A stretch of 64,000 nucleotides of DNA, taken from positions 2,881,463-2,945,462 of the forward strand of contig NC_087382.1 of the NCBI RefSeq assembly GCF_963675165.1, written 5' to 3'. The notes under the pieces were generated by a model. That model had not been told where the DNA came from. It made no database searches and worked only from the letters and a program-made list of their open reading frames with translations. The DNA is from Halichondria panicea (Eukaryota > Porifera > Demospongiae > Suberitida > Halichondriidae). Within the stretch, counting starts at the first letter, position 1; every line of letters starts with the position of its first letter. The translations under genes were made by a program, and so were the position numbers. Of this stretch, positions 4,414 through 54,264 are shown piece by piece.

Positions 4414-4844
4414 CTACCCCACACACTCACCAAGTATCTGCTGGAGTCGTCCAATCAGATTGCTCTCACTTGTTAGTACTACTGGCCAGTACGTTAGCAA
4501 CTGTCGCACTCTTGCCGGGACCGCCCCCTCACTCGTTGCTATGGGAACTACACATCGGGTGTTGGTGACAGCCAATCGCTTCATCGCTAGCTCCAACTCG
4601 AGCTGACAAAACTTACTCTCGGAAAAACAATCAGAAAACACGAACAAAACCTTGCGACTGTTGTTCACAGCATCTGCAATCTGCTCTGTTATGGATAGTC
4701 CAGCAACGAAATCTCTGAGATGCCAGCACACCCGATAGTGAGGGGAGGATTGCGTTTCTAGGGGGTGGAGGATGTGGGTCTGAACCAGCTCTCTAGTCTC
4801 GTCGTGGGCGCTTATAAATACATCATACTTGAAACCAGTACCTG

Positions 4845-4942
<98 letters not shown>

Positions 4943-7218
4943 GTGGAGGTGTGTGCAGTGTGTGTGTGTAGAGGGTGTGTGCGCTGTAGTGTGATGGTGT
5001 GTGCAGTGTGGAGGGTGTGTGCAGTGTGATGGTGTGTGCAGTGTGGAGGTGTGTGCAGTGTGGAGGTGGTGTGCATGCATGCATATTAATTTGTATTTTT
5101 AGAGCCTGTAACTTGTCCTAGATATCGTCTATTTTGTAGCTCTATATAATCACTGAGACAGAAGATACAAGAAGCTGAATGATAGCTATTAGTTCACTCA
5201 CTCTGTGGTTCTGTGGAGTGTGCTGATGATGGTTGACTGACCCTCTGCCCCACCAGTAGTAACACAACACCAATTGCAATCACCAAGGTACCACTGACAC
5301 TAGTCACTAGTATGGAGACCAGTCTGCCACTGTTAACTGGAGCTGCAGTAGCAAAAGTAACAGTAAAAAATTAATATAGGCATATGCATGATCGACAAGA
5401 GTAGGGGACCCATAGAATACGCATATACGTAACATACATATTATAGGTATACGACTAATAAAGATTATCAGTCTATCTAACCAGCTGCAGGTAAATGGAA
5501 GTAATATGTAAAACGGCAGTAAAATAATTGTAAAATACTATTACTGCAGAATGAAAATGCTGCAGAAGGGACTCCCCATTCTCCTCACTCTCTCTCTACC
5601 TTCTAGCTCCAACTCCACTGACGCCATTTCCTCTCCATATTGACAGACATAGTTTCCCTCCATTGCACTACTACACCTTCTCACAGTTAGTTCATTGGTC
5701 CAGCTACAGTCCCTCTCGTTATAGCGTGGGCGTTGTTGTATGTAGGGGAGTAGCTCTCGGCTACCGTTGCTCCTGACGATGAACCAGTATGGCTTCAGAC
5801 CATACGAGAATGGGGCGTGTACGGTACATGAGAGGGTGTGGTCTTGGCCAATAAGGGGCGTGGCATTCATGGGAGATATGACGATGCTACTATTGCTTGT
5901 ATGATAGGAACAACCTGTGTGTGTGTGTGGGGGGGGGGTGAAGTGAGGGTGTGTGTATGGTGGGAGTGGGTAAGTGTGTGAAGCATGATTGTAAGTAGCT
6001 ACAAATTTAGTACGTAGTTGAACATCTTTCTACAGCCATAACTTGAATTTCGTTGATCCAATGTCAAAATTTTAGTGAAAGCTTAGAAGAGACCTTTCAA
6101 ATGGTACCATCAAAAGTTTATATTTAAATTAATTTGGCCGTACCATGGATTATAGCCCATGATCCAAGGCCGGAAAATGACAAATTAGGGCCCTGACATG
6201 GATTTAAACACAAAATCATTGGTCCTCCAAGTCACGTGTGTGTACCTAACCAACAACTACCAACTAAATTCTTACTTGTTGCTTGCAAGAAGAACAGTCC
6301 GTCATTACTATAATTCTCATCTCCTATCTGATTGGTCGCATGGCATTCATACACGCCCCCATGTTCTCCCGTGTATCCCTCCACTCTCCACTTCCGTCCA
6401 TTCTCGGAAAATACGACATCGCTGGCAAAACTTAATTTCTCCCGACGATCTATGTTCCTGTATCGCGTCCAAGTGTAGCTTGGTGGGGGGTCACTCTGCA
6501 GGGGACAGGTGAGCTCATACGGGCGTCCAATTACAGGACTCCTGTTCACACCAGCTGGCCACGTCGCCATGGGAACAACACGAGGAGGATCTGCGTGGGC
6601 GGGGGCAATGGATTAATGGTAAGAGTCTAGCTAGAGTGAACAATTAATACTAAGTATTTTATAGCAGCTATATAATTATGTGAAAGCTCTGAAATTGTTA
6701 TAAACTATAATCATGTTCTACAAAAGATAACAAAAGATAACATTATATCATACATGTACCTTGTCAGTTTGTTTGTGTATATGAGTGGTATCAAATATTG
6801 GACAGTGTAAACATGAAGTTGAGATAACGAATCTCCAGACCACATAATGTGCTCTGTGGGCTATACTGATAGACTGATAGACTTCCTACAGAAACTAAAA
6901 CACTTCAGGCTATAATATTATCAGACACTTGAGGCTATCAGCTGCATAGCAACTTACAGAGCACTGTTAGTTGATAGCATGGTATATCCCAATGGTTGAT
7001 GGTGGGGATATCAGGGACACAGCAAATGCTTGCACCGCTATCATTCCATTGAGGGTACAAGTGAAGATAGCTGGACGAGTTGCTTAGCAACACCTGCACA
7101 GAAAAACAGTTTACATAATGAAGATGCAAAGAAAGAACTATCAATTGTTTTTAATCAGATTATATCAACCATTAATTGTTCAATTTTTCAGCACTGTAAA
7201 CGTTTTTTCGATAGCACG

Positions 7219-14751: not shown

Positions 14752-16242
<1,491 letters not shown>

Positions 16243-16316
<74 letters not shown>
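16243..16316. repeat. (TG)37 at end of copy A
   Basis: Pure TG tract at the junction of copy A with the Penelope-like body; the equivalent tract after copy B is far longer (20793-20975). Confidence 0.95.
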
Positions 16317-16317
<1 letters not shown>

Positions 16318-16378
16318 CTTTACCCACAAGGGTGGGGGATTGGGACCCCACCCTTGTGGGTAAAGGTCCCAATCCCCT
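16318..16378. other. Strong hairpin at the 3' end of the Penelope-like body
   Basis: Arms of 20 bases, 16318-16337 and 16346-16365, pair perfectly with an 8-base loop (core acccacaagggtgggg). A second overlapping inverted repeat joins ggggattgggacc with ggtcccaatcccc (to 16378). It lies between the TG tract and the end of the endonuclease ORF, so it would sit in the 3' untranslated part of the element RNA. Confidence 0.75.
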
Positions 16379-16505
16379 ACATGGGGAACGGTACGTGCAT
16401 GCGCAATCTCAGTATCTGTTTTAGATTTTGCACAGCTATCTTTTTAAATGGATCGAGGTGTATTTACTGCAAGTCATGTGACTTAATTAAAAACACGTGG
16501 ATACA

Positions 16506-18857
16506 TTATGATAATACATTTAGTCCATGTGGAATAATTGTTCTAAGTGTAGCTATCCAGTAGTGTTCTAAAGCTTGGAGTTCTGTGAAGGACGTTGTTG
16601 CGTCAATACACTGTACTTTCAGGTTTCTGACAGAGTGATCGGTAAAGTTGAAGTGGTTGCTTATATACGTTCTTACTTTGTTGAAAATATTGCTACGATG
16701 ATGATTGATTCTAGTTCGAAGCGTTTGAGTGGTGTAACCCACATACTGTTTCTTGCAATGTGAGCATGTAATTAGATATATGAGATATCTTGAATTGCAG
16801 GAAAATTGGTGTCTGATTGGATACGTTTTTTCTGATTTCGATGATCTGAAAAATCTATTACATACTAGGTGTTGACATGTTGCACAGCTCGGTTTCATAC
16901 ACTTACTTATTCGAGTGTGTTGTGTGAGAGTGGGAACGCTTCTTGTAATTGTGTGTTGGTGGACTTGATCAAAGGTTATTTCAGTTCTGAGCGTTTGTTC
17001 TTCGTTTAAACTGATTTTGGCCCTAACGAGTTCTTTACCGAGATTTTGGTGTTTCAGATTGATTATTCTGGGACTGGGTAATAGTAAGCCTTTGTAGTGC
17101 TGTAGTGTGACACTTTTTAGTAATTGGAAATTTGGAGGCGAGAGGCACTTGAAAATGGGTGGTCTTACTCTGGCAGGAGGTTTTTTCATTTTCCGAAGTA
17201 ACTGAGGTCTTCTCTCATATGACACGGAATTGATGGTTTTGTCAATGAGGGTTTGGGGATAGTCTCGTTTTTTAAGGCGTATGCTAAGGAGCTGAGTCAT
17301 GGTTTGAAACTCCTGGATGGTGGTGTTTGTGCGCACAAGTCTGGTACATTCTCCGGTAATGATGGATTTGAAGATGTGTTTCGGATGGTTTGATGTATAA
17401 TGTAGGTACTGGTAGAGATTTTGTTGTTTTTGGAAGGTTTTTGTGTCTAGTTTTCGAGATTTGTGGAAGTGGGGACCTTTGTAAATTGTCATATCTAGAA
17501 ACGAGACTTGTTGAGATGAGTAGGAGTATTTGTAACTTAATTTTTGGTGGGATATATTGAGTTCGGATAGGAAGCTGATTAGCGAGTTTTCATCATGCTG
17601 CCACACTATAAAAATGTCATCTATGTATCTTTTAATCAGGAGAGGTTTAGCTGGTTGTTTTTCTAAAAATCTTCTGATGATTACCGACATGAATATGTTA
17701 GCGATGGTGGGTGAGAACGGGGCTCCCATTGCTGTACCTTGTATTTGTTGGAATGTAACTGGTCCAAACTCGAAATAATTGTGATTAACGCATATTTGTA
17801 GAAGTTGGATGATTAGATTTGGGTCTAGCAGCAACGTGTACCTATGACTTAACATTTCGGTGTATATTATCTGCAGACATTCCTCTTGAGGAATGGAGGG
17901 ATACAATGAGTCGACGTCAATTGCTACTAATAGCGCATTGTCGGGAATTTGTAAGTCTTCTAGAATTAGTGACAAACAAGCGGAATTTTGTAGGTAATCT
18001 TCGTACGTTTAAGCTAGGGGTTGAAGCACATGATCTAAGAGCTTACTAGCTGGCGTTAGTGGAGAATTACAGTTTGCAACTATGGGTCTGACTGGTGGCA
18101 GTTTTTTGAATTGTTTATGAATTTTCGGAATGCCGTAAAATTGTGGAATTTGGAAAATGTCTTTATTGGGGAGAACGAATCGTTTTAGCCGCTTATCGGT
18201 ACTAGTGAGTGTGGTATGGTATTTTGACAGAACTTCTTGGAGTTGGTTGGTGATTTTGGTGGTGGGATACTCGGCGGTTCTTTTATATACCTTATCGTCT
18301 AGTAAGATTAGGAGGCATTGTTGGACGTAGTCTGTGGTGTCCATTATAACTACGCCTAAGTTCTTATCTGCTGGCTTAATGGTGACTCGATTTTTTTGTT
18401 TTTTGAATTTTTGTAGTGCTAAAGATTCTGCGAGTGTGACATTTGTTTTGGGCTTGAAGATTTCGTGTAACTGGTCATTGATATTATCTTTTGTGACGGA
18501 AATGTATTGTTCGACATTTCTGTATCCACTATTGTATGTATCATTAAAAGAAGAGTATGTGGTTGTTGGTAGGAATCGCATTGGTCTATGTACTTTTTCT
18601 GTCGTTGTGGGTATACCACTTTTTACTGGTTTCGGCGTGCGATAATATATAGAGTTAGTGTATATTCTTCTAAGTGACTTTGAGTATTCGTTAAACTCTC
18701 GTAACAGTTGTAATTTGGATTCCGTACTACATAAGTTTTTGGTGAGTGCGAAGCTTAGGCCTTTATTTAGTAATTGTGATTCGGCAGTGGTGAGGGTGAG
18801 TGAGCTCAGATTGTGGACGCACCTGGTGGGTTGTGTTTCGGTTGGGGGCCTTCCCAT
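16506..18857 (-). pseudogene. Penelope-like reverse transcriptase with GIY-YIG endonuclease, one stop
   Basis: Two minus-strand frames, 18857-18009 and 17975-16506, are in the same phase and separated only by a TAA near 18010. Upstream: CVHNLSSLTL, VTIKPADKNLGVVIMD and FYGIPKIHK, the N-terminal RT motifs of this class. Downstream: motif A AIDVDSLYPSIP, motif B GTAMGAPFSPTIANIFM and catalytic motif C RYIDDIFIVW. A Cys linker (KCMKPSCATC) leads to a C-terminal GIY-YIG domain (YLIYLITCSHCKKQYVGYT). The gene copies element RNA into DNA at a nick made by the endonuclease. All catalytic blocks look intact, so the stop is probably young, or a sequencing error. Confidence 0.88.
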
Positions 18858-19477
18858 AAAAAAGGAGTTTGTGATGTTTTGGGAATTTTTTGGGCTATTG
18901 GGTGTTGAGACATTTCTCTACACCGTTTTCTGCGAGTATTGCGTTTCGCACCGAGAGAAAGCCTTGGCGGCCGATGTTTTTTATTTAGTCTGATTTGCAA
19001 CTCAGGTGTGGGGACGTGTCCGTGGATCTTGTTTTCTTTTAGGAATTTTCTGTATTGTATTTGGATATCTGTGTCACGTATTTCAAATTTAAGTAAATCT
19101 CGTTCTGTGTCATTCACAAGAGATTCTAGTGCCGTCTTTGTTTGGGCCAAACTCTGGTTGTTGCTGGTTATTACTGCTTCTAGATATTTTGTGAAGATGT
19201 GGGAGTATTCTGATAGAAATTGTTGATGGAAAGTGTCGTTTTCGCAGGTTAAGTTAGGTTTCGGTATGAATTCTTCCGGGATCGCTCCTAATTTCAGTTG
19301 GTTTTGCCTTTGAATGTTTTCCTCTAGGATAGAGACAGCTGAGCGAAGTTTCTGATACTGAGCCGATTTGGCTTTTAGGAATTCTTTAGCTTGTTTATTC
19401 ATGGCTGTGAAAACATTTAAGTGTTGAAATTCAGTATGTATATAGCCGATATTCAAGTAGCCATTCAGTCTCTTCAA
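18806..19477 (-). pseudogene. N-terminal ORF of the Penelope-like element, frameshifted
   Basis: A 223-residue frame rich in Lys/Gln/Glu, probably helical, overlapping the RT frame by 52 bases but in another phase. The overlap has runs of T and C (near 18845-18865), where a one-base slip would join them. In related elements the N-terminal region is usually continuous with the RT, so this is a frameshift by decay or, less likely, a programmed one. No domain recognised. Confidence 0.6.
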
Positions 19478-19685
19478 ATTAATTGGTTTTCAGTTAAATA
19501 AATTTCAGTTAAATAACCTAGGGTTGTGAGAAGTGGACCACATAAACTAAGGGCAGTGACTTCATATCGAAACCAGATTCCTCGACTGAGCCCGAAACGA
19601 GAGGCCCAGCCACATAAGGCGCAATGCCAGAGGGCATAGACCCAACGCCACAGACTCAGCCCCGTACTCGAGGAGCACGTGTGTG

Positions 19686-22095
<2,410 letters not shown>

Positions 22096-33278: not shown

Positions 33279-35074
33279 TTAGTAGCTCTTTTTTTTTTCC
33301 GCTAGTGGTGGTGGTTTTCTATGCTCTGTTGATAATTTGTCACCATCAATTTTTTTTACTGCTCGCGGACCATTCATTAATTGAGATTTGACTCCTCTAG
33401 GTTTTGGAGAAATAGGAGGTGGTTTTCGGAGATCTGTGTAGTCACTTTTGTCCATTCCGTCAGCGTCAATGGTGTGATAATGAATCTCTATAGCGTTGTC
33501 TTGAAGATGAGCAAAGTCCGTATTATTAGCTAGTGATGTACGTAGGGGGTGGTCTAGGGGGGGAATCTCCTCAGCACCAATGTCAACGTAACCATCCGAG
33601 TTTTCCAATACCTGAGAGGGGGTGGTAGATTCGTTGCCATGGATATCAATGGTTGTCTGGAATTGTAAAGGTTCGTTTATATCGTGAATAAGGTCAATTT
33701 CAGTTGATGGCTTTCCTGTAAATAAAAAACAACAACTTATGCATGTAGCGTTAAATAGAGTATTAAACGGCCATAACTCTAGTTCCGTTGGTCCAATAAC
33801 GTTGAGATGTTTTGAAAGAGGCCTTAGATGATATGTTAAAATCCAAAAATCTATTTTGGATTTTGGACCTGTTACAGCCCATGCCAAAAATAGGAATTAT
33901 GGCCTGTTTTAAAATTGAGATTTGAGCATACAATCTGAGCGGGCTCTTTCTAAGATCGTTGAACAGAACTCTAGTTACAGAGCAACTCTAGTGCTTTCAA
34001 AAGAAGTAGTCCTATATTTCTTACCTGAAGGCAATAAGCTAAGCTATTAGCAATTATATAGTGGGTGGAGTCCTAACAATGAAAATGTACCGCCATTATA
34101 ATCATTGGACGACTTACTCTTTGATCTCAGAACGCAGCAGGATATACAGATGAGCAAGGAGAGAAGGGCAACAAAGAATGAGGAGATGGCTACGCCCGCT
34201 ATCACCTGCAGGTAAATATTAGATGTATCAATAAAACGTGTACGGAGATTGTGCATGCATAACGCCCACACACACGCCCACACATCCTATTCACCTGCTC
34301 ACTCAAGGGGGAGGGGCCCACAATGGTAGGTGTCTCGATGTTGCCCACAGGCATAAGAATAGATCCATTGCCAGCAAACATTGATACCTGCTGAGACAAG
34401 GACAGCCCTGTACAGGGGGGGTAATCAGCATACGCATCAGGGGGTAGCACTTTAAACACTGCACTGGATTCATAGGTCGAATTAGCCTCTCCGTAGACTC
34501 CGACCTGACACCAATAATCACTCGGACCTTCTGCTCCTATTAAATCTTTTAGTGAAAGTGTTGAGATTAAATAATCTTCGTTGCTTGAGATGGTTTCATT
34601 TATTGGCATTTCAATATTACCGGAGTTGTTAGACCTTCTAAACCAACGAATAGTGTGATTGGATAGACCCCCTTGCTGGTAGAGAGCACAGATTAGTTGT
34701 TTAGGTCCAACAATGTACGGGTTACAAGAATACTGGCTCACTGGTTGGACAGTGTAGAGTAGGGGACCTTTAGTGTGCATGTGTGTGTGTGTGGGAGAAG
34801 TATTACAATGCATGAGCAATATTACGACTGTATGCAGAGATATATACGATATGTACCAATGAAAAAAATTATATACATCATTAAAAGTCATAAGCTGTGG
34901 ACACTCACTATTATCAGGAATACTTGATGGACTCTCGCTATTATCAGGAGTACTTGATGGACTCTTGCCATCATTAGGAGTACTTGATCCACTCCTACTA
35001 TTATGTTGAGCAGAAGTTACAGAGAAAAGTAGAACCAGTAGAACCGCAAAGGAAAGTGAAAAGTTGAGATCCAT
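33279..35074 (-). CDS. Ig/TM receptor A with ITAM-like tail (array copy 1)
   Basis: Exons 34909-35074, 34295-34767, 34118-34205, 33279-33715; 1164 nt, 387 residues. Exon 1: signal peptide (MDLNFSLSFAVLLVLLFSVT) and a Ser/Pro repeat (about three copies of SPSSTPDNSE) absent from the paralogues. Exon 2: one Ig-like domain (Cys in LICALYQQGG, IRWFRRS, Cys in DYWCQVGVYG), then a stalk. Exon 3: membrane helix (AISSFFVALLSLLICISCC). Exon 4: tail with GYVDIG, the tyrosine pair YHTIDADGMDKSDYTDL (YxxI-x9-YxxL, ITAM spacing) and PISPKPR (SH3 class II type). After ten A bases near 33290-33300 the frame ends early. The paralogues' YQEL segment is still present downstream out of frame, so this tail is truncated, unless the run is misread. 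Exon 2's usual CACAG acceptor is lost; AAAG in correct phase is used in this model. Confidence 0.8.
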
Positions 35075-36710
35075 ATCTTGTGCTGTGTTCAACTGGTCTA
35101 TGCTTTCAGCTATAGTTACAATTAACTGTGTTACTTTGTGTATATACGTTGCTTATACTGTTACAGTATTATGCAATTCTAAAATTTCCCATTCTCCACA
35201 CCCTAACATTCTGCACACCCAGTCAGCATATGGAGTCTACATGCAGTACAGTGTCAGCCAAGCAAAAACATATATAATACTGCATAACCTTTGTTTTGGT
35301 GCAATACCATACACACACAGATCGAGGGGGTGGGGGGTATGAATACTTGGTAGGTACATGCGAACAAGGAAATTTAGGGCGGAACATGGGGCTCAAATGG
35401 TAAACTTATAAGGTGTTTGATAACACAAATATTGGCTGTTCAAACAGCTCAACCAGGGCTTAAAATAGCTGCTGACAAGAAACTGAAGGAAGTTCAGCTC
35501 CGTCTAGTTGTATAGCACTTGTATATAGCTATGCATTCAAGGTTTACTTTAGTGTGAGCTGGCCAATGACTTTTCACACGCTTAAAATATTCTGTCACCT
35601 ACTTGGAGCTAAATTTCCTATTCTCAACCTCATTAATTAATACAACATGGAGCCCAAATTTTCACTCGCTTGGCAAAATCCTAAAAGAAACCCTGGTTCC
35701 ATTGGTAATTGTATTTCCTTGCTCCTCATATTTCACTATAATTATATTGTGCATGCAGAAGGGTTATTAGCATAATTATACACTAGCTGATAAGACATCT
35801 TCATTACTGCTATATCGGGTAATTTTCGTGGGGAAAAATATTCGTGGTTTTCGTGGTTGAAAGTCTGAACACGAATAGTTTACCCACGAATGAAGAAACC
35901 TTGCCTACCTTTACCTGCAGTGCAAGCAGCAACCAAAAAAATATTACCAAGAAATGTCTCAATATTGCTGAACCACGAATATTTTGTCCCTCGAAAATGA
36001 CCCGCTATATATACGGTATCTAGCTAGATTAACTGTATAGGTTATTATAACTCATGCAATAGGGATGTCAGCTAATACAACTCACGCCGAGGGCAAGAGT
36101 TGTATTAGCTGTACAGCACAAGAGTATGACGGACTTATTGCTGATTGTGCATGGAATAATTAATTTTCAAGGATCATTACCTATCAATTGAAAATTGCAG
36201 GATTCTACCCTACTGCATTAGGATTTGCCACAGTTTTCCAGTTTCTTATAAAAACAATGCAAGCTAATAGGTGGTGGGTGGTGCTTTAGGTTGAATCGGT
36301 CTGCATTCTGGGTAATCAATATCATCCAGGTACGTATATTGATCATACCCTGAATGATATTGATTACCTCCAGGGACGCAACAGTACTATAGTATAGTGC
36401 AACGCTTTGATGTCTGACCACACTTGAGCAATATAAAGGTAATAATTTGGTATATTTAGACTGAAAATGATAGCTTATAAGACTATATATCTCAGCTGCT
36501 AAATTTAATGCAATAAGACTAAGGACTTATAAAGCAAGCCAATTAATTTGAGGGTTGATTCCCATAATTGAGGGCAATTAACTTCAAAGGCCTTTGTTTG
36601 CATGCACAACCATACAACCATAGCAATACTCTGCCAAGAAATGAATGGATACGGCTGATAAACTGCTAAACTCAACTTACAATACCAGTCAACAGTAAAG
36701 ATAAAACAAT
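35075..36710. other. Spacer between receptors A and B with a foldback repeat
   Basis: No exon recognised. Bases about 35815-36015 are a foldback repeat: gggtaattttcgtggg at the left, ctcgaaaatgacccgctata at the right, with cgtggttttcgtggttga and ccacgaat blocks inside. Related elements lie near 59935-60145 and 61500-61745. Bases about 36307-36368 form an inverted repeat around gtaatcaatatcatccagg. Confidence 0.5.
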
Positions 36711-38434
36711 TCAGTTAGCATACACACTCTCAGAGCTAGGGCTAGCAGATAGCTCTGCTGGACATGTGTACAGTACTTCCATATAATCCTTAGTGCTTGA
36801 ACTTAGCTCCTGATACTCTTGTTCATGAGGTTGCTGAGATTGAAGCAGCGATTCATCCTTGACATTAGGAGCTCCATTTTTGTCTTTATTCTTTGGTAGT
36901 GGTAGCGGTTTTCTACGTTCTTCCGATGTTTCGCCACCACCAATTCCTTTCACTGCAAATGCTTGCTGACAATTCACTGATTGAGATGTGACTTCTCCAG
37001 GTTTGGGAGAAATAGGAGGTAGTTTTCGGAGATCTGTGTAGTCACTTTCATCCAATCCGTCAGTATCAATGGTGTGATAAATCTCTGTAGCGTTGTCTTG
37101 AAGATGAGCAGAGTCCATACTATTAGCTAGTGATGTACGTAGGGGGTGGTCTAAGGGGGAAATTCCCTCAGCACTAACGTCGACGTAATCATCCGAGTTT
37201 TCCATTTCCTGAGGGGAGGTGGTAGGTTCATTGCCATGAATATCGATGACTGTCAGCGATTGCAAAGATTTGTTTGTAAGGTTAATTTTAGTTGATAGCT
37301 TTCCTGGAAAGGAAAAACAACAACTTTTGCATGTAGCGTTAAACAGAGCATATTTGAACGGCCATAACTTTAGTTTCGTTGATCTAATAAAGTTGATTTT
37401 GAAAGCTTAGCCTTCCAGATGAAGTGTTAAAAATCAAAAGTCTATGTTTATTTTGGGCCTGTTATTGACAAAAGACTATGCATAATATTGCTGAGCTATT
37501 AGCAAGTTTAAAAATCCTAAAATGAACTTTCATTATTGATGACTTACTCTTTGATTTCAGGACGCAGCAGAATATACAGATGAGCAGGAGGAGAAGGGCA
37601 ACAAAGAATGAGGTGACGGCTGCACCCACTATCAAGACCAGTCGGAAATCCTGTAGAGAAAATGTATGTAGCAAAATAAAAGAGTGTATTGCCCACACAA
37701 ACACATACGCACACCGTACGTACCTGCTCACTCGAGGGGGAGGGGCCCACAGTGGTGGGTGTGTCGGTACTGCCCATAGTGGTAGATGTGCCGATGATGC
37801 CCAAAGGTGTAAGAATGGATCCATTGCCAACAAACATTGATACCTGCTGAGACAAGAACAGTCCTGTGCAGGGAGGGTAACCAGCGTACGCATCAGGGGG
37901 TAGCACTCTAAACACTGCACTGGGTTTATAGGTCGAATTAGCCTCTCCGTAGACTCCAGCCTGACACCAATAATCACTCGGACCTTCCGCTTCTATTGGT
38001 TGAAGTATTGAGATCAAATAATCTTCGTTGCTTGGATTAGTTTCGTTTATTATCATCTCTGTTTCAATATTACCGAAACTTCTAATCCAGCGGATGGTAT
38101 GATTGGATAGACCCCCTTGCTGGTAGAGAGCACAGACTAGTTGTATAGATCCATTACTGTGCGGGTTGCAAGAATACTGGCTCACTGGTTGGACTGTGTA
38201 GAGTAGGGGACCCTTAGTGGCTGTGTCTGTGTGGGTGCATGGAGGGGGGGGGAGGTATTTACATACGATACCTGGTCCAGTACAGAAGAGAATTTATGTG
38301 TAGCATAACTATACACACACGTAGAAAAGTTATAAGCTGTACATACATAGGCACTCACTATTGCCTTGAGCAGAAGCTATGGGGACAAGTAGAACCAGTA
38401 GAACAGCAAAGCAAAGTGAGAAGTTGAGATCCAT
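36711..38434 (-). CDS. Ig/TM receptor B with ITAM-like tail (array copy 2, intact)
   Basis: Exons 38359-38434, 37724-38226, 37548-37650, 36711-37303; 1275 nt, 424 residues, all phases consistent and no break seen. Signal peptide MDLNFSLCFAVLLVLLVPIA; Ig-like domain with Cys in LVCALYQQGG and DYWCQAGVYG; stalk with Thr/Pro repeats; helix LVLIVGAAVTSFFVALLLLL; 197-residue tail. Tail motifs in order: DDYVDVSAE, the ITAM-like pair YHTIDTDGLDESDYTDL, PISPKPG (the Arg of the SH3-type motif is replaced), EYQELSSSTKDYMEV, LYTCPAEL and a terminal VYAN. SH2-protein recruitment after tyrosine phosphorylation is inferred from the motifs. No known receptor recognised. Best reference copy of the family. 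Confidence 0.85.
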
Positions 38435-39715
38435 ATCTTTTGTGCAATTGATCAATTCTTTCAGCTATAGCTACAATAATTGTGTTACTTTGCTGTGCTG
38501 TCACAGTTTTATGCAGCTCTAAAGCAACCATGCATTCCAGTATAATTACTGGGAGACCACAAGTACATGCAAGTCCCAGCCAAAGCGTAACTATTATATC
38601 ATGCTTATCAAAACGATGCTACATATAATTATAGCTTTTGTTTTGGTGCAATGCCATATACACACACAGAATGCGAATAAGGATAAATTTTAAAAGGTGG
38701 AACAAGGTGCACATAAAACTGATAAATTTATAAAATCACTGCTGTCTGGAAGCGTACTACATGCATAGATACTATAAATTAGTGTCTATGCTACCTGCAT
38801 ATGATAGTATCAGGTATATAAGGAAGACATGACATCATGCAGGAAGTATTCATGCACTCCTGGTATCAGGTATATAAGGAAGACATGACATCATGCAGGA
38901 AGTATTCATGCACTCTTGGTATCAGGTATATAAGGAAGACATGACATCATGCAGGAAGTATTCATGCACTCCTGGTATCAGGTATATAAGGAAGACATGA
39001 CATCATGCAGGAAGTATTCATGCACTCCTGGTAATACGTCTGCATAAATGAGGCCTAGTACAATATATTACTGCTTGGTAGTGTTTAAATATACCTCTTG
39101 TATCGATGTCATTAAGAGCCGCTCACATTGTAATCAATTAACTTTCCTCTTTGGGTTGCCTTGGTGACACCCGACAATCCGCCACAATTGTCCAATAGGA
39201 TTGTCCCAGTTTGCTGGTCAATTCACAGTTCCACCAGCACCATTGAAATATTCTCTTCTGAGCAAACTTGGTTCCAAAGTTGTCGAAATCTTTCCCTTAT
39301 CACACCTGATAGTGGTTTACACAAAACCTTTGTTATACATTCTCCGCATTCAGTTGCATTGTGTATAGGCAAGAAATTAAATTCAGTGTTCAAATCAATC
39401 AGACTGAAAATGATATATCTTTAAGACTATCTCTCGACTGTTAAATTGAATGCACACTAAAAGCGAGACATAATTAAGGGTTGACCCCATAATTGATGGC
39501 AAAGGCCCTTGTTCGCACGCACAACCATGCAACCATGGAAACCGGGTTCCTGGAACAGATAATAGAGTGCCTGCCTAATACAGATTGTTGCTGGTTTCAA
39601 TCTACCTTTTGCACTTGGAAAATTGTTAAGTGTATAATTATTATGTCTCACATGACACGTATACAGTTACAAACTTACAATACCAAAAATATGAGTCAAC
39701 AGGAGATAAAACAAT
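38435..39715. repeat. Spacer between receptors B and C with 56-base minisatellite
   Basis: Bases 38809-39029 are four near-perfect copies of a 56-base unit (ggtatcaggtatataaggaa, then gacatgacatcatgcagg and attcatgcactc). The rest is AT-rich; bases 39480-39560 resemble 41990-42070 and 36590-36650, so the spacers of the array were duplicated with the genes. Confidence 0.75.
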
Positions 39716-41329
39716 TCAGTTAGCATATACAATGCTCTCAGAGCTAGCAGATACCTCTGCTGGACATGTGTACATATCCACACGATTCTTCGTGCTTGAG
39801 CTGAGCTCCTGATACTCTTGTTCACAAGGTTGGTGAGATTGAAGCAGCGATTCATCTTTGAGAGTAGCTCTATTTTTGTCTTCATTTTTCGGTGGTGGTA
39901 GCGGTTTTCTACATTGTTTAGATGTCTTGCCATCACCAATTCTTGTTACTGCAAATTCTCGCTGACAATTCACTGATTGAGGTTTGACTCTTCTAGGTTT
40001 GGGAGAAATAGGAGGTGGTTTTCGGAGATTTGTGTAGTCATTGGTGTCCATTCCGTCAGCATCAATGGCGTGATAATAAATCTCTATAGCGTTGTCTTGA
40101 AGATGAGCAGAGTCCATACCATTAGCTAGTGATGTACGTAGGGGATGGTCTAGGGGGGGAATCTCCTCAGCTCCAACGTCAACGTAACCAGCCGAGTTCT
40201 CCATTTCCTGAGGGGGGGTAGTGGGTTCGTTGCCATGGATATCGATGGTTGTCAGCGATTGCAAGGGTTCGTTTGTACTGTGAATAATGTCAATTTCAGT
40301 CGATAGCTTTCCTGGAAATAAATGCACATGTAGCGTTAAATAGAGCATCATATGTCACCTTAAGCCTGAGGGGAATATGTACGCTGAGCTATTTAGCAAT
40401 TAAGTATAATAGAGAGTGGTGAAATCCTAAAACAATGAATAATTATAATACTGCTACTGCCACTAATTTAACGACTCACTCTTTGATCTCAGGACGCAGC
40501 AGAATATACAGATGAGCAAGGAGAGAAGGGCAACAAAGAATGAGGAGATGACTACACCCGCTATCAACACCCCTGAGATATTCTGCAGGTAAATATTACA
40601 TGTAGCAATAAAACGAGATTGTGCATGCCTAACGCCCACACATACATGCATCCGCCCACATACCACACATCCTGTTTACCTGCGAGGGGGAGGGGCCCAC
40701 AGTGGTGGGTGTGTCATCACCTACAGGTGGAAGAATGGATCCATTGCCAGCAAACATGGTTACCTGTTGAGACAAGAACAGTCCTGTGCAGGGAGGGTAA
40801 CCAATATACGCATCAGGGGGTAGCACTTTAAACACTGCACTGGGTTCATAGGTCGAATTATCCTCTCCGAAAGTTCCAGCCTGACACCAATAATCCGCTT
40901 CTATTGAATTATTTAGATAAAATATTGATACTAAATATTCTTCATTCCTTGCATTAGCTTCGTTTACAATAATTATTACTGCAGTTGTTAGAGCTTCTAA
41001 ACCAGCGGATGGTGTGATTGGTCAGACCTCCGTGCTGGTAGAGAGCACAGACTAGTTGTATAGATCCATTACTGTGCGGGTTGCAAGAATACTGGCTCAC
41101 TGGTTGGACTGTGTAGAGTAGGGGACCTTTAGTGTCTGTGTGTGCATGGGGGGGGGGGGAGTATTTATAGTATAGAAGATAATTTATGTGTAGCATAACT
41201 ATACATATACTGGTACACGTAAAAAAGTCATAATCTGCATGCATGTCAATTACCATTATCTTGAGCAGAAGCTATGGAGACAAGTAGAACCAGTAGAACT
41301 GCAAAGCAAAGTGAGAAGTTGAGATCCAT
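39716..41329 (-). pseudogene. Ig/TM receptor C, frameshifted ectodomain (array copy 3)
   Basis: Exons 41254-41329, 40680-41135, 40480-40582, 39716-40311. Signal peptide, Ig start (LVCALYQHGG, IRWFRSSNN), helix (VVISSFFVALLSLLICIFCC) and tail are all recognisable. Exon 2 is 456 nt, one base out of phase. The frame is lost near 40980 after SSNNCSNN and resumes in another phase before DYWCQAGTFG, so a one-base indel breaks the Ig domain. The segment before DYWC is also shorter than in the paralogues. The exon 1 donor is weak (gtaatt). The tail frame is open: GYVDVG, YHAIDADGMDTNDYTNL, PISPKPR, YQEL and terminal VYAN. Pseudogene, or an intact gene with a sequencing error. Confidence 0.72.
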
Positions 41330-42196
41330 ATCTTGTGCTGTGTGCAACTGGTCTATTCTTTCAGATATAGCTGCAATAACTGTTTGTGTAGTTGCTTGTG
41401 CTGACGTTTTTATGCTAACTCCCCATTCCCCCTACACCCCAAAATCCCCCATAACTATTCCAGTATGAGACAAAAGTCTGCATACCATATACATGCATGT
41501 ATTGACAAGAACCATGCATGCATGCATTGCATTCCAATATATGACAGGGAGACCACAAGTACAAGTTCCAGCTAAAGCGTAATATTAGAAGTTCCAGCTA
41601 AAGCGTAATATTATATCATATCTTAAAATTAGTGATGCTATATATACATGCATACAGCTTAATTTACTACATATGCATGCTATTTTGGTGCAATGCCACA
41701 CACGCACGCACGCACGCCCACCCGCCCGCCCGCCCGTTAACGTTCAGGCAAATACACTAGCACTTGTAGTGATTCGTGCACGCATGTCGGACCTCCTCTG
41801 ATCTGACAGTGGTTAATTTACACAAAACCTTTGTTAACTGAAAACACATTCTCCACATTCGGTCGCATTGTGTACAGGCAAGAAATTCATATAAATAAAT
41901 TATCTTTAAGACCATCTCTCAGCTGTTAAATAGAATGTACGCTAAGGACTTACCAGCAAACCTGACTCCATAATTGGGCACTTAACTTCAAAGGCCCTTG
42001 TTTGCACGCACAACCATGCATGCAACCATAGCAACACAGGAAATGAATGGAAACCAGATTCCTGGAACAGATCATGAGTGCCTGCCTAATACAGATTTGT
42101 TACTTGGTTTACATCTACCCTTGCACTTTGAAATTAATTATTATGTCATACATGACAGTTACAAACTTACGATACCAAAAAGAGTCAACAGTTAAT
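41330..42196. other. Spacer between receptors C and D
   Basis: No exon recognised. Bases 41701-41735 are a cacg/cccg microsatellite; 41570-41615 is a short tandem duplication (agttccagctaaagcgtaat). Bases 41990-42190 parallel the spacers downstream of the other array genes. Confidence 0.5.
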
Positions 42197-44205
42197 TCAG
42201 TTAGCATACACAATGCTGTCAGAGCTGGCAGATAGCTCTGCTGGACATGTGTACATTTCCGTATAATCCTTCGTGTTTAAACTGAGCTCCTGATAAGAGT
42301 GTTTAGAAGGTTGCTCAATTCTTTGAGATTGAAGCAGTGATTCATCCTTGAGCGTAGGAGCTCTATTTTCGTCTTTGTTCTTCGGTGGTGGTAGCGGTTT
42401 TTTATATTGTTTAGATGTTTCACCATCACCAATTCTTGTTACTGCAAATGGTCGCTGACAATTCAGTGATTGAGATTTGACTCCTCTAGGTTTGGGAGAA
42501 ATATGGGGTGGTTTTCGGCGATCTGTGTATTCACTTTTGTCCATTCCGTCAGCATCAATGGCGCGATAATGAATCTCTATAGTGTTGTCTTGAGGATGAG
42601 CAAGGTCTGTATTATTAGCTAGTGAGGGGTGGTCTAGGGGGGAAATTCCCTCGGCACCAACGTCAACGTAATCTTCCAAGTTTTCCATTTCTTGAGGGAG
42701 GGTGGGTTCATTGCCATGGATATGGATGGCTGTCAGCGATTGCAAGGGTTCGTTGCCATGGATACCGATGACTGTCAGCGATGGAATGGGTTCGTTTATA
42801 TTGTTAATTTCAGATGATAGCTTTCCTATAAATGAAAAACAATGTATAAGATGTAGCGTTAAATAGAGCATCTTTGAACGGGCATAACTTTAGTTTCGTT
42901 GGTCCAATAACGTTGATTTTCTGATTTTTTAAAAGCTTAGAGAGAGGCCTTTCAGATGATGCATTAAAATCACTGGAGTCTATTTTTGGGTTCGTTTTTT
43001 ACAAAATACCATGGGCTATATATAGACTATAGTCTTTTTATTATGTTAGCCATAAATACTGCAATCTGATTGGATGTGTTCTATCCAACTTAGAAAATCA
43101 TGTACATGTACTTACTTAGAAATTCATGTAAACCACTTAGAAAATCATGTAGCAAAGATTAGAAGAACATTCAAATCTGATTGGCTAGAGAGACTCATGG
43201 TTGCTATGATCTAAAATGCTTAGACACTGTTTAGGAAGTTTCCACATGATTTAGAAGCCTAAAGGGCTAGTTGTAGTATCCCGAACGTAGTGAGGGTTCT
43301 ACTAGAAACTATAGAAACTTCCTAAACAGTGTCTATATAATTATTATAGGGAATTGGCCTATTCTGTAATACACATTTGAAATTTTGAGCACCATCTGAA
43401 CGGGCTTCTTCTAAGTTTTCAGGATCGTTGAATTTGGACAAATGACAGAACTCTAGTTAGAGAGCCCGACTATTAGCTAAGCTGTTTTAAATGTAAACTG
43501 CCATTATGACTCACTCTTTGATCTCAGAACACAGCAGGATATACAGATAAGCAAGGAGAGAAGGGCAACAAAGAATGAGGAGATGACTATACCCACTATC
43601 AAGACCAGTGTGAGATCCTGCATGTAGGGAAATAATTACACTAGCAATAATAGCAATTGTGCATGTCTAACGCCCACACATACATGCACCCGCCCACACA
43701 CACATACACCCACACATCCTGTTTACCTGCTCACTCGAGGGGGAGGTTTCGATGATGCCCACAGGCATAAGAAGCGATCCATTGACAGCAAACATTGAGA
43801 GCTGCTGAGACATGGAGAGTTGCGTACAGGGGGGGTAACCAATATACACATCAGGGGGTAGCACTTTAAACACTGCACTGGGTTCATAGGTCGAATTAGC
43901 CTCTCCGTAGACTCCGACCTGACACCAATAATCACTCGGACCTTCTTTTTCTATTACATCTTTTAGTGGAAGTGTTGAGATTAAATATTCTTTATTGCTT
44001 GAGATGGTTTCATTTATCGGCACTGTTTCAATATTAAATATACCGGAGTTGTTAGACCTTCTAAACCAGCGGATGGTGTGATTGGATAGACCCCCTTGCT
44101 GGTAGAGAGCACAGACTAGTTGTTTAGGTCCAACAATGTACGGGTTGCAAGAATACTGGCTCATTGGTTGGACTGTGTAGAGTAGGGGACCTTTAGTGGC
44201 TGTGC
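42197..44205 (-). CDS. Ig/TM receptor D, first exon missing (array copy 4, partial)
   Basis: Exons 43727-44205, 43515-43617, 42197-42825 are open and in phase; no signal-peptide exon is found upstream. Ig-like domain with Cys in LVCALYQQGG and DYWCQVGVYG, then a shortened stalk; helix LVLIVGIVISSFFVALLSLL. The 209-residue tail has an internal duplication of the SLTVIGIHGNEP segment, DYVDVG, then YRAIDADGMDKSEYTDR, where Leu of the second YxxL is Arg (CTC to CGC), HISPKPR, SYQELSLNTKDYTEM and terminal VYAN. Upstream of 44205 the first exon is replaced by a dispersed 'gagcgaaagcaaaa' repeat (about 44290-44375), which offers an ATG but ends in the wrong phase. Probably a truncated gene, unless a distant exon supplies the signal peptide. 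Confidence 0.72.
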
Positions 44206-45085: not shown

Positions 45086-46559
45086 CTATAGATAAGCTTC
45101 TAGAGAGTTCGTTATTCTAATGAACTCAGCAATTGCATATGAATATGCTTGTCCATTTCCTGATACCACATTACTAAAGATGTCCCCAAAACGACAGCGA
45201 GAGAGGAAATATTGCTCCCTTTTCATAATTAGATCCTGTCGATCCTTGAGTGGATCGCAACCAAAAAGTCCAAACTCTCTTAGCTGACCACCTTGAGAAC
45301 GGTATGCATCTGCAGCTTCATCAGTACCCGGTACTTCCCCATCTGGAATGGGTATAGTTTCATAACGCTGCACCTGCAAATGATTGGGTACTCCTCGACC
45401 TGTATCACATATTATAATAGCGCATGTGTCATCAATAATAATGTCATTACATTTACCTGGTATAGAATGATGATTCCAAGCTGCAACAAACAATGATAAT
45501 CCATGATAAGCAACATTGCACGTAACAAACGAAACACAAAATTTTGTAGTTTCATCACTCATGTTAATCAGATTAGTAGCTTCCATTGATATCAAGTGTC
45601 GCTTTAGGGGGTAGTTAATACGAGAATTTACTTCAACCCAAATGCGTTCAACAGTGTGGTTCTGTAGAGAGAAAAGTTAATGCATGTAAGCAATATCAGT
45701 ACCCTTACTTCTGTTGAAGGAGATTGAACGTAAGGAAGAATATCCCGAGGGCCAACACGACAACGAAGTGCTTCTTGTACATACAAAAGAAGATAAAATT
45801 CTCTTCCATGGTCGACTCGAATTTGCTTCCAAAGACCATACGTTTTAGTAGATGACCTGATATGGAAATTATACGTGTTACTGATGTAACTATTATTCAA
45901 TGAGTTGAACAATACCTCAAAATACTGTCGTATATAGCCAAATTGTTCTTGACTGGCATTGTACAGTAAGCAATTATCTTGCCTGAATATCCATCCCTTG
46001 CAACTATGTGGGTAGCACCAAACATTGTGATCTTTTCATTTTGGTCAATATGAAGTTTATGCCCAAAGTGGAGAGCCGAGTATTGCAGTGGATTAGTACG
46101 GTCTAAGGTGTCATTCCGCCGCTGATCATATTGCAAAGGGGCCACTCTCTGTAAGGACTCTGAAACTCTTTTCTCAGATACCTTAATACCTTTAGACTCA
46201 AGCACACCCTTTAACATTCTCCGGCCATACACATGTCCAACCTGCAAGTCATAATTAATTTAGAAATGTTTTTTGTGGTACTTAGCTAATTACGCACATG
46301 GACTGTATTCTCCGGTGCTACGGTAATATTCTTAGTATTAAGCCCTATACTACGTTTAGCTTACTTCAGTAACAGCACATTCGACTACAGCATCTACTTG
46401 AGCAGAATCTGGTTTATGAATGCCATTTTCAGAGCAGAATCGCCGAACACTTCTTGCAGAGAAGCCTCTTATTCCTGGAAAGCGGGTCTTGAGTGTATTA
46501 CTTATATCTTCGTGGGTCATACCACTTGTAACCATTTCAAACACTTCATCCACATCCAT
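45086..46559 (-). CDS. DDE integrase-like protein, four exons
   Basis: Exons 46365-46559, 45916-46241, 45709-45856, 45086-45661 (1245 nt, 414 residues), phases consistent. N-terminus: helix-turn-helix-like segment (MTHEDISNTLKTRFPGIRG, SARSVRRFCSENGI), then VSEKRVSESLQRVAPLQYD. The integrase core follows: first Asp in HKLHIDQNEKI, the strand block HIVARDGYSGKIIAYCTM, second Asp in IRVDHGREF and Glu in NHTVERIWVEVNSR, giving a D,D-38-E arrangement. The C-terminus is an uncharacterised domain seen after such cores. Function: DNA strand transfer as a transposase, or a domesticated relative. It is spliced, intact and only 120 bases from a divergent AT-hook/RING gene, with which it may form one transposon. 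I found no terminal inverted repeats by eye. Confidence 0.78.
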
Positions 46560-52124: not shown

Positions 52125-54264
52125 TTATATTACAACAGTTTTCTTCATCAAAGTTTTCATCGATTCAAATGCGTTCAATTGGGATAATTGCTGTTCATTC
52201 AATTGCACTGCAGCAGCATCCAAGTTGTCTGCAGCAGCATCCAATTTGTCTGCAGCAGCATCCAAGTTGTCTGCAGCAGCATCCAAGTTGTCATCATCCA
52301 ATTGCACTGCATTCAATTGCACTACTGCAGCATCCAAGTTGTCATCATCCAATTGCACTGCATTCAATCGCACTACTGCAGCATCCAAGTTGTCTGCAGC
52401 AGCATTCAACAGCACTGCAGCAGCATCCAATGGCACTTTAGCATTCAATTTCACTGCAGCAGCATTCAATTGCACTGCTTTAGCATTCAATTTCACTGCA
52501 GCAGCATTCAATTGCACTGCAGCAGCATTCAATTTCACTGCAGCAGCATTCAATTTAGCCTCGATTCCAGGCCGCTTGCCTGGAATCGAGGCTACATTCA
52601 ATCGCACTGCAGCAGCAGCAACAGCAGTATTCAATTGCACTACAGCAGTATTCAATTGCACTACAGCAGTATTCAATGGCACTACAGCATCATTCAATTG
52701 CACTGCAGCAGCAGCAGCAGTATTCAATTGCACTACAGCAGCCTTCAATTGCACTACAGTATTCAATAGCACTGCAGCAGCAGCAGCAGTATTCAATTGC
52801 ACTGCATTCATTTGCAATGCAGCAGCATTCCGTGGCACTGCAGCATTCAATGGCGGCACGTTCAATTGCACTGCCACTGCAGCATTCAATTTATGTTGTG
52901 CTGCAACTAATTGAGTGTTTTCATAATTATCCCATTGATTTGCATCCATATTCAATTTCAGTGCAGCAAACCATTTACTAATCAATTTAGCCACCTCCGT
53001 GCTGTGTTCAATCATTACAATCTCGAAATCAGAGTATTTGAATGGAGTGCATTGTTGACCAACCTTTACTTTAGCCCTTAATTTAGCCACTGACATAGCT
53101 ACCGAATGAACTATCGATTGAGCCATCTTAGTATTTTGCTTATCATTGCCATTCGTATTCAATAGAGTATTCAGTTCATTCTCCAATTGAGTTACCAATT
53201 GAGCCTGTGTGATGAGCTTGCGTACCTCATACACGGATTCGGACCCCACATAAAGCATAACTATACACGCAGCACAAACAATGCTTAGAGCAGCTCTCGC
53301 AATATGCAGATAGTGCATAACTGCAGCCATTTTGACATCATCATCGACAGGCACATTACAAAGACAATAGTTTAACGGAAGAAGTTTGTCTGCTAAGAGG
53401 TAGGCTACAAAAATAAACCATATAGCAACACCGAACAAAATAACTAACCATTTGTATTTGTTGCACTTCATGACAATACGGCCAATAGAGTATATTGCAT
53501 AAATATTTGCAATTACAAAAACTGCCCCAAAAAAAGCTTGATCGACTCCTCTGCAAAACATAGTTGGCGTGGATATCATATTGATGCGAGCTACTTGAAG
53601 CAAAGTACTGTAGAAAGCATCAAGGGGAACCAATTTAACAAGCATGTCCGGAACTGGTCCCCACAAATGCTTGGAATCACTATTTGGCTGCCAGTCAATA
53701 TTGCTGATTAGTATAAATGCAAAAAGTGCAGCTACTGCAGATGCTCTCAATCCACTCTGCCATTCGTCCGATAAAACAAGAGCATTATTATCAGTAATAT
53801 TACCCTGAGTTGTATTACTGGCACCAAACAAGTCGACCACCTTGGTGATATTGTTTCCATAATAGTAGAGCAATGGGCCAAACACAGTGCAAAAAACCGG
53901 TTTTAAAAACTTATCCATGAGTTTATTGCAATCATTCTTCACACGTGTACAGTCTTTACAGTCAGAACACTTTGATAGTAGTTCGGTGACACATTTATCA
54001 ATACAGTCACAATAACAATACTCTTTTATTTCTACAACAACATAGAACCATCCTAGTATAAAAGAAATCGTCAAGCCCACCACAAATGCGAAACAAATTA
54101 GCCAAGTTATTGTTGGAGGAAACATTGCATTCATTTCCAAAATAAATGTTAGGATCATATCCATAAGGAGCACGATAACAAATAACCAGTTGCTACCTGC
54201 TGGAGCCTGCAAAATACATTAATACACAATCGTTAAACAATTTTATTTTTGTACTTACAGCCAT
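52125..54264 (-). CDS. Multi-pass membrane protein with long Ala/Val/Leu/Asn repeat tail
   Basis: Exons 54259-54264 (MA) and 52125-54206, joined by gtaagt and a ttgcag acceptor; about 695 residues. Upstream of the ATG the same frame is open and hydrophobic (CYIIALLLILLFDKYSPGQL), so the real start may be different. About six helices: WLFVIVLLMDMILTFIL, ITWLICFAFVVGLTISFILG, ASAVAALFAFILIS, AFFGAVFVIANIYAIYSIG, WLVILFGVAIWFIFVAYLLA and AALSIVCAACIVMLYVG. A Cys-rich loop (EYCYCDCIDKC, then CSDCKDC) follows helix 2. Residues about 430-690 are near-heptad repeats of the form AAAVxLN, later AAADNLD. A 37-base perfect hairpin is inserted in frame at 52557-52593. No known family recognised. Decayed relatives lie at 59.8-62.5 kb. 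Confidence 0.7.
52190..52900. repeat. Coding minisatellite of the repeat tail
   Basis: Variable units of about 21 bases built on gcagcattcaattgcact in the C-terminal part of the membrane-protein gene. The reverse strand is also open (SKLSAAA, FNCTAAA types) because of the repeat composition; that frame is not taken as a gene. Confidence 0.9.
52557..52593. other. Perfect hairpin insert within coding repeat
   Basis: Arms agcctcgattccaggc (52557-52572) and gcctggaatcgaggct (52578-52593), loop of 5 bases. It encodes a non-repeat segment (VASIPGKRPGIEA) in frame between AAAVxLN units. Similar blocks, ttgattccaggcc near 287 and tcgatcccaggcc near 59560, suggest a small dispersed palindrome. Confidence 0.8.

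Follow-up and report, generated by a model that had tools for sequence, protein, structure and literature searches.

Gene models in the window

The window analyzed here is a stretch of 64,000 nucleotides from the genome of the sponge Halichondria panicea (contig NC_087382.1, hereafter C6; C6:2881463-2945462), and its principal feature is a tandem array of four receptor-like gene copies, lettered A to D from its 5' end, on the minus strand at window positions 33279-44199. The copies are spaced about 2.5-3.6 kb apart. Each contains an immunoglobulin (Ig) exon, a membrane exon and a tail exon at matching positions, with GT...AG borders and intron phases 1, 0 and 1. An earlier sequence-only reading had described four minus-strand genes with a common exon plan. 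The four copies and the shared phases stand, but the genes are not all complete: copy C alone is intact in the window, and no first exon was found by pattern for copy A.

Copy C (36711-38434) is modelled with a signal peptide exon (38359-38434), an exon for the Ig domain and a Ser/Thr-rich stalk (37724-38220), a membrane helix exon (37548-37650) and a tail exon (36711-37303), all of them intact. In copy A, the Ig domain and stalk (43727-44199), the membrane helix (43515-43617, supported by its hydrophobic stretch) and the tail (42197-42825) were modelled; a pattern search upstream found no MDLNF-type signal exon, leaving exon 1 in three of the four window copies. Copy B (39716-41329) has a signal peptide exon (41254-41329), a frameshifted Ig exon recovered by both the genome search and the gene model (40680-41135), a membrane helix exon (40480-40582) and a tail with an open frame (39716-40311), the last backed by the tail search, the gene model and its substitution pattern. 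Copy D (33279-35074) begins with a signal peptide exon containing SPSSTPDNSE-type repeats (34909-35074), followed by an Ig exon with an uncertain acceptor (34295-34767), a membrane helix exon (34118-34205) and a tail (33279-33715) shortened by a frameshift, in whose frame neither YQEL nor VYAN occurs; YQEL persists in another frame. Neither copy D nor copy F, which belongs to the second cluster described below, has an AG near the usual start of exon 2; the frame would be preserved if an AG at the first codons were used.

Two further features lie within or beside the array. A 56-base unit is tandemly repeated between copies B and C (38751-39086), and frames with an integrase core (rva_4, 1.2e-8) occur in pieces adjoining copy A on the minus strand (45086-46259).

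A second cluster and selection on the family

The genome searched comprises 131 Mb in 39 contigs. A search with the Ig exon returned 11 matches, all on C6 (copy B and a relict in two pieces each), and a search with the tail returned eight, corresponding to the same eight copies, A-H. The family therefore consists of eight copies and one relict, with A-D in the window and E, F, G, H and the relict in an inverted second cluster about 96 kb from the window array (C6:3021714-3042474). Exon order and phases are common to all eight copies, with copy A lacking exon 1. Copies G and H are intact like C, copy E lacks VYAN, and a visible defect is present in five of the eight. An explanation of the second cluster as a haplotype artefact was rejected on the basis of the synonymous divergence (dS) of the Ig exon between clusters, 0.26-0.38, and of the presence of both clusters, inverted, on one contig.

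Pooled over 21 pairs of Ig exons (seven copies, without B), the ratio of nonsynonymous to synonymous divergence (dN/dS) is 0.39; over 28 pairs of tails (eight copies) it is 0.60. The frames have therefore been kept by selection, and the family is under purifying selection. Of these two exons, the one for the Ig domain is the more conserved in the window family. Positive selection was not found on the Ig exon, where the highest dN/dS, 0.63, falls in the C'-E stretch (with 14 gapped columns) and the remaining three stretches give 0.27, 0.28 and 0.37 (the stalk having 15 gapped columns).

SPO16-like fragments, several of them broken, lie beside receptor copies at window positions 39109-39393 and 41780-41890 and at C6:3020903-3021238, 3024273-3024568 and 3036205-3036530. 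The similarity is weak (SCRE, 4.3e-6, just under the cut-off).

The Ig domain and a diverged neighboring gene

Exon 2 is predicted to encode an Ig fold with the B-F cysteine pair and the strand-C tryptophan characteristic of the Immunoglobulin superfamily. Pfam searches of the array proteins returned only chance-level families. The predicted fold is supported by structure models of middling quality, for which the listed matches are mostly V-type chains. The adjacent membrane stretch consists of 19 hydrophobic residues with no charged residue in any of the eight copies (best 19-residue stretch in each), and CD300- or TREM-like receptors, in which a charged membrane residue would be expected, were rejected as a class for this family.

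A diverged gene, R, is located on the minus strand at C6:3049166-3058905. The start of its Ig frame, C6:3058288, lies some 16 kb past copy H, which is on the other strand; a mucin-like stalk and then a hydrophobic stretch follow the Ig part. The Ig part of R is 36% identical to the array Ig domain (E 0.0018). Alignment was tried with two copies, giving a score of 88 with copy G (maximum of 500 shuffles, 48) and 57 with copy D (maximum of 500 shuffles, 49). Against sequences in the PDB, the R domain has 206 matches at E values of 10 or less, of which the strongest reaches 2.8e-5; the best 60 of these 206 bear the names of antibody or MHC class II chains, and the domain matches chains of the constant-region type. 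Through this predicted relative, the Ig homology of the array is supported. Further diverged Ig matches occur at C6:3934981, C2:6367101 and C4:6636139.

Downstream of the R Ig frame, on the same strand, there is an open frame of 446 codons, of which 436 residues, including 21 tyrosines, were taken as the tail. The Ig exon would be joined to this frame, about 7 kb away, via a 22-base exon, as suggested by strand, order and phase arithmetic, with the small exon counted by eye.

Tyrosine motifs in the tails

Both tyrosines of a proximal pair are present in all eight tails, at a constant x9 spacing. The pair was read as YHAI-x9-YTNL in copy B (40025-40075) and as YHTI-x9-YTDL in both copy C (37029-37079) and copy D (33429-33479). 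In copy A it reads YRAI-x9-YTDR (42518-42568), with a second site off the consensus of the immunoreceptor tyrosine-based activation motif (ITAM). The sequence-only reading had given every tail a YxxI-x9-YxxL-type pair, which is strictly correct for B, C and D and holds for the two tyrosines of A, but not for its second site. Family-wide, strict YxxI-x9-YxxL occurs in six of the eight copies (B, C, D, F, G and H), the exceptions being A and E (first site YHPV). A distal x6 pair is strict in E (YQEL-x6-YLEL) and G. It is degenerate in copies A and C (in C the near-ITAM YQEL-x6-YMEV, 36774-36815), has been lost from B, F and H, and is missing from the shortened frame of D. The ITAM consensus, YxxI/L-x6-12-YxxI/L, is thus found in the tails, with both pairs strict in G, the distal pair only in E and neither in A.

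Other motifs recur around these pairs. PISPKP, also ascribed to every tail by the sequence-only reading, is exact in B, C and D and reads HISPKP in A. VYAN, for which the same had been claimed, is found in three of the four window tails and is missing from the frame of D; terminal YAN or YSN occurs in six of the eight family tails. A YVDV-type site is present in all eight (one YVDI and one YIDV), and YQEL or YQAL in all seven tails retaining that part. Across the YVDV, YxxI, YxxL and PISPKP blocks, the proportion of nonsynonymous differences (pN) is 0.072, compared with 0.158 elsewhere in the tail; a value as low came up in 264 of 20000 random sets of blocks.

The predicted tail of gene R contains two strict ITAMs, YETI-x9-YAHL, followed by prolines, and YSKL-x8-YSRL; at least one strict ITAM arose in 306 of 5000 shuffles of this tail, and at least two in 21. 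When each array tail was aligned locally with the R tail, the top alignment opened at the x9 pair and extended into the proline-rich stretch for five of the eight copies, B, C, D, F and H; 7, 16, 1, 11 and 36 of 300 shuffles, respectively, did as well. The top alignments of A, E and G fall elsewhere, and here 113, 22 and 22 of 300 shuffles did as well. Conservation of the tyrosine pair, when checked beyond the window, was thus seen both in the second cluster and in this neighboring gene, and gene R, if joined as modelled, strengthens the ITAM reading of the array tails.

Signaling genes in the same genome

Genome searches gave 71 matches to SH2 domains and at least 156 to tyrosine kinases (129 of 1749 candidates scored). 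On C4, exons for an N-terminal SH2 domain, a C-terminal SH2 domain and a kinase follow one another in order on one strand. The first 11 rows for the N-terminal domain are SYK or ZAP-70 (best 2.4e-32), followed by PTPN11 (4.2e-15), and the first 12 for the C-terminal domain are likewise SYK or ZAP-70 (best 2e-35), followed by GRB7 (3.1e-15). In the translated frames, both domains keep the FLVR-type arginine. For the kinase piece, an EGFR-labelled entry comes first (1.6e-56, in two stretches), followed by 24 SYK/ZAP-70 rows (best 4.7e-42, ZAP-70). By these matches the C4 gene is a member of the SYK family, namely SYK, with its exons presumed to be joined.

A gene on C9 encodes an SH2 domain, ankyrin repeats, a second SH2 domain and a kinase in order, which is the SHARK/HTK16 arrangement described in PMC9486129; by its domain order it is a SHARK-like kinase. 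On C3, two SH2 exons are followed in order by a protein tyrosine phosphatase (PTP) exon, the PTP piece matching LAR best (8.7e-31), with SHP-1 at 9.8e-26. Three open frames with an SH2 domain and a kinase at C2:7249317-7256049 could be Src-type kinases. As predicted genes, SYK, the SHARK-like kinase and the SH2-SH2-PTP gene strengthen the ITAM reading.

Other Ig clusters

Matches to V-set domains reveal further Ig clusters on C10, C9, C4 and C6. The array had been regarded as a compact system, but the family is one among several Ig arrays of the genome. In the array at C10:5.04-5.16 Mb, one gene (with an incomplete first exon) and four further tails were read, and all five tails carry YxxI/L-x6-YxxV, a near-ITAM rather than a strict one. 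The gene has an apparent frame break in its membrane stretch, as judged by eye. When it is used as the query, three copies with tail and Ig exon together have tails that are 88-91% identical to it and Ig exons that are 65-66% identical; the ectodomain therefore diverges faster than the tail there. A fourth, split copy (C10:5142449-5143171) does not follow that pattern, with tail pieces at 77 and 87% and main Ig pieces at 87 and 89%. This array is a candidate recognition repertoire, and its tails, as read, strengthen the ITAM interpretation. Elsewhere on the same contig (C10:1635933-1939391), V-set matches are interleaved with tyrosine kinase open frames, probably representing an array of Ig receptor tyrosine kinases.

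A model for the array receptors

We read the window genes as tandem type I membrane receptors, each with one Ig domain and an ITAM-type pair in its own tail, that would signal via the SYK or SHARK-like kinase, and we assign this reading a probability of roughly 0.66. Once spliced, the product would have a signal peptide followed by the Ig domain and a stalk, then a membrane helix free of charged residues; the pair lies in the tail, to which exon 4 contributes up to 208 residues. Ligand binding or clustering may lead a Src-type kinase to phosphorylate the two tyrosines, on which the tandem SH2 domains of SYK or of the SHARK-like kinase could then dock, and the proline-rich stretch behind the pair may recruit an SH3 protein. 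The role of such a receptor would be cell-surface recognition, whether of self and non-self or of microbes, and it is in this sense that the array may be called a recognition system. The first suggestion, that the copies encode receptors with a single Ig domain whose own tails carry ITAM-like motifs, is well supported by the Ig homology seen via gene R, the constant x9 spacing, purifying selection and the SYK gene.

Several points weigh against this reading. The eight codon columns of the proximal pair, taken alone, do not show the constraint of the wider blocks (pN 0.098, with a synonymous proportion, pS, of 0.049); change is greater in the distal blocks (pN 0.200). A strict ITAM arises by chance in 1.3-3.7% of shuffles per tail (eight tails, 5000 shuffles each), and the copies are related and so not independent. 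The ITAM case that can be made from the window family alone is therefore moderate.

It may be instead that these are general tyrosine docking tails for Grb2, Src or endocytic adaptors recognizing Yxx-hydrophobic sites, and that the proteins are adhesion or scavenger receptors to which ITAM logic does not apply. The ubiquitous YVDV-type site, YQEL or YQAL, the terminal YAN or YSN (a Grb2-like YxN) and the many tyrosines of the R tail would all suit such a tail; however, tyrosine pairs at x9 spacing are found repeatedly, in the array as well as in R, and a near-ITAM x6 pair is present in the C10 array, which makes this alternative rather unlikely. Inhibitory or mixed receptors, in which the first tyrosine belongs to an immunoreceptor tyrosine-based inhibitory motif (ITIM) that recruits an SH2-SH2 phosphatase rather than SYK, are also unlikely. 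The first site fits [SIVLT]xYxx[ILV] in seven of the eight copies (all except C) and the second site does so in C and D, and the ordered SH2-SH2-PTP exons on C3, with LAR ahead of SHP-1 among the PTP matches, offer a possible partner, but the x9 spacing kept in all eight copies and in gene R better suits a tandem-SH2 kinase than separate ITIMs. A decaying lineage-specific family with little present function, to which the relict and the five defective copies might point, is improbable given a dN/dS well below 1 in both exons and the intact copies C, G and H.

Other features of the window

Ig and TIR exons occur in order on the minus strand at 4417-6612 (Pfam: Ig_3, 8.9e-9; TIR, 1.5e-14), and probably constitute a sponge-type Ig-TIR receptor gene, if joined as their order suggests. 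At 15130-20866, a reverse transcriptase and GIY-YIG element, which we take to be Penelope-like, lies between two 1.19-kb direct repeats that are 99.9% identical, and looks like a young insertion. An open frame on the minus strand at 52125-54218 contains numerous degenerate LNAA-type repeats and what look like membrane segments; a stretch 71% identical to it is found 70 kb away, and the frame has no Pfam match. Scans of the window for tRNAs and Rfam families found nothing.

Comparison with known recognition systems

In Drosophila, Draper carries an ITAM in its own tail that is used by Shark, an invertebrate SYK-family kinase. The array receptors resemble it in having an own-tail ITAM, in a genome that also has a SHARK-like gene, but the ectodomain of Draper is EGF-like rather than Ig. 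The Alr proteins of the cnidarian Hydractinia are Ig-like, and belong to another phylum.

The receptors of Hydractinia Alr and Botryllus fuhc carry ITAM- or ITIM-type motifs, and allorecognition systems in general are described as using unrelated receptors convergent on the same signaling (PMC12065747). In Hydractinia, candidate allorecognition genes with these motifs lie in one locus, in a genome that encodes the signaling molecules; the fuhc locus of the tunicate Botryllus schlosseri contains Ig-superfamily receptors with an ITIM and a hemITAM instead of a full ITAM pair (PMC12065747). Both are likened to the sponge array by description, not by sequence. The oyster receptor CgIgIT2 is also an Ig receptor with an own-tail ITAM, although with five Ig domains rather than one (PMC11999971).

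Within sponges, Ig-superfamily proteins are known as adhesion and recognition molecules (PMC11999971), and the mechanism of allorecognition is counted as unsolved in a 2025 review (PMC12065747). SYK genes have been reported from sponges in PMC9486129, in an account that states neither their role there nor the receptors served. The Geodia cydonium receptor tyrosine kinase is an Ig-like membrane receptor, but has its kinase in the same chain, and the word ITAM is absent from PMC12018476. Sponge Ig-TIR receptors are another Ig class, with a TIR tail in place of tyrosine motifs (PMC6208332, a paper on sponge immune receptors from which the word ITAM is likewise absent). No report of ITAM or ITIM Ig receptors in sponges was found among the open-licence papers searched in full text, a scope outside which most subscription papers and preprints fall.

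Clustered Ig receptors with matching tails, beside SYK in one genome, provide concrete receptor candidates for sponge SYK and make the origin of ITAM-SYK signaling directly testable. Vertebrate immune receptors call on SYK through paired tyrosines of this kind, and the co-occurrence of ITAM-type receptors and SYK in a sponge genome suggests that such immune wiring could have an earlier origin than is usually pictured. More tentatively, and with the odds somewhat against it, the clusters could form a large undescribed repertoire of single-Ig receptors with own-tail ITAMs and SYK or SHARK, the C10 Ig domains diverging rapidly on conserved tails, as a poriferan counterpart of the cnidarian and tunicate allorecognition loci that would place ITAM-SYK recognition near the animal root. 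The kind of system is known from these other animals; the phylum and the family appear to be new within the literature searched.

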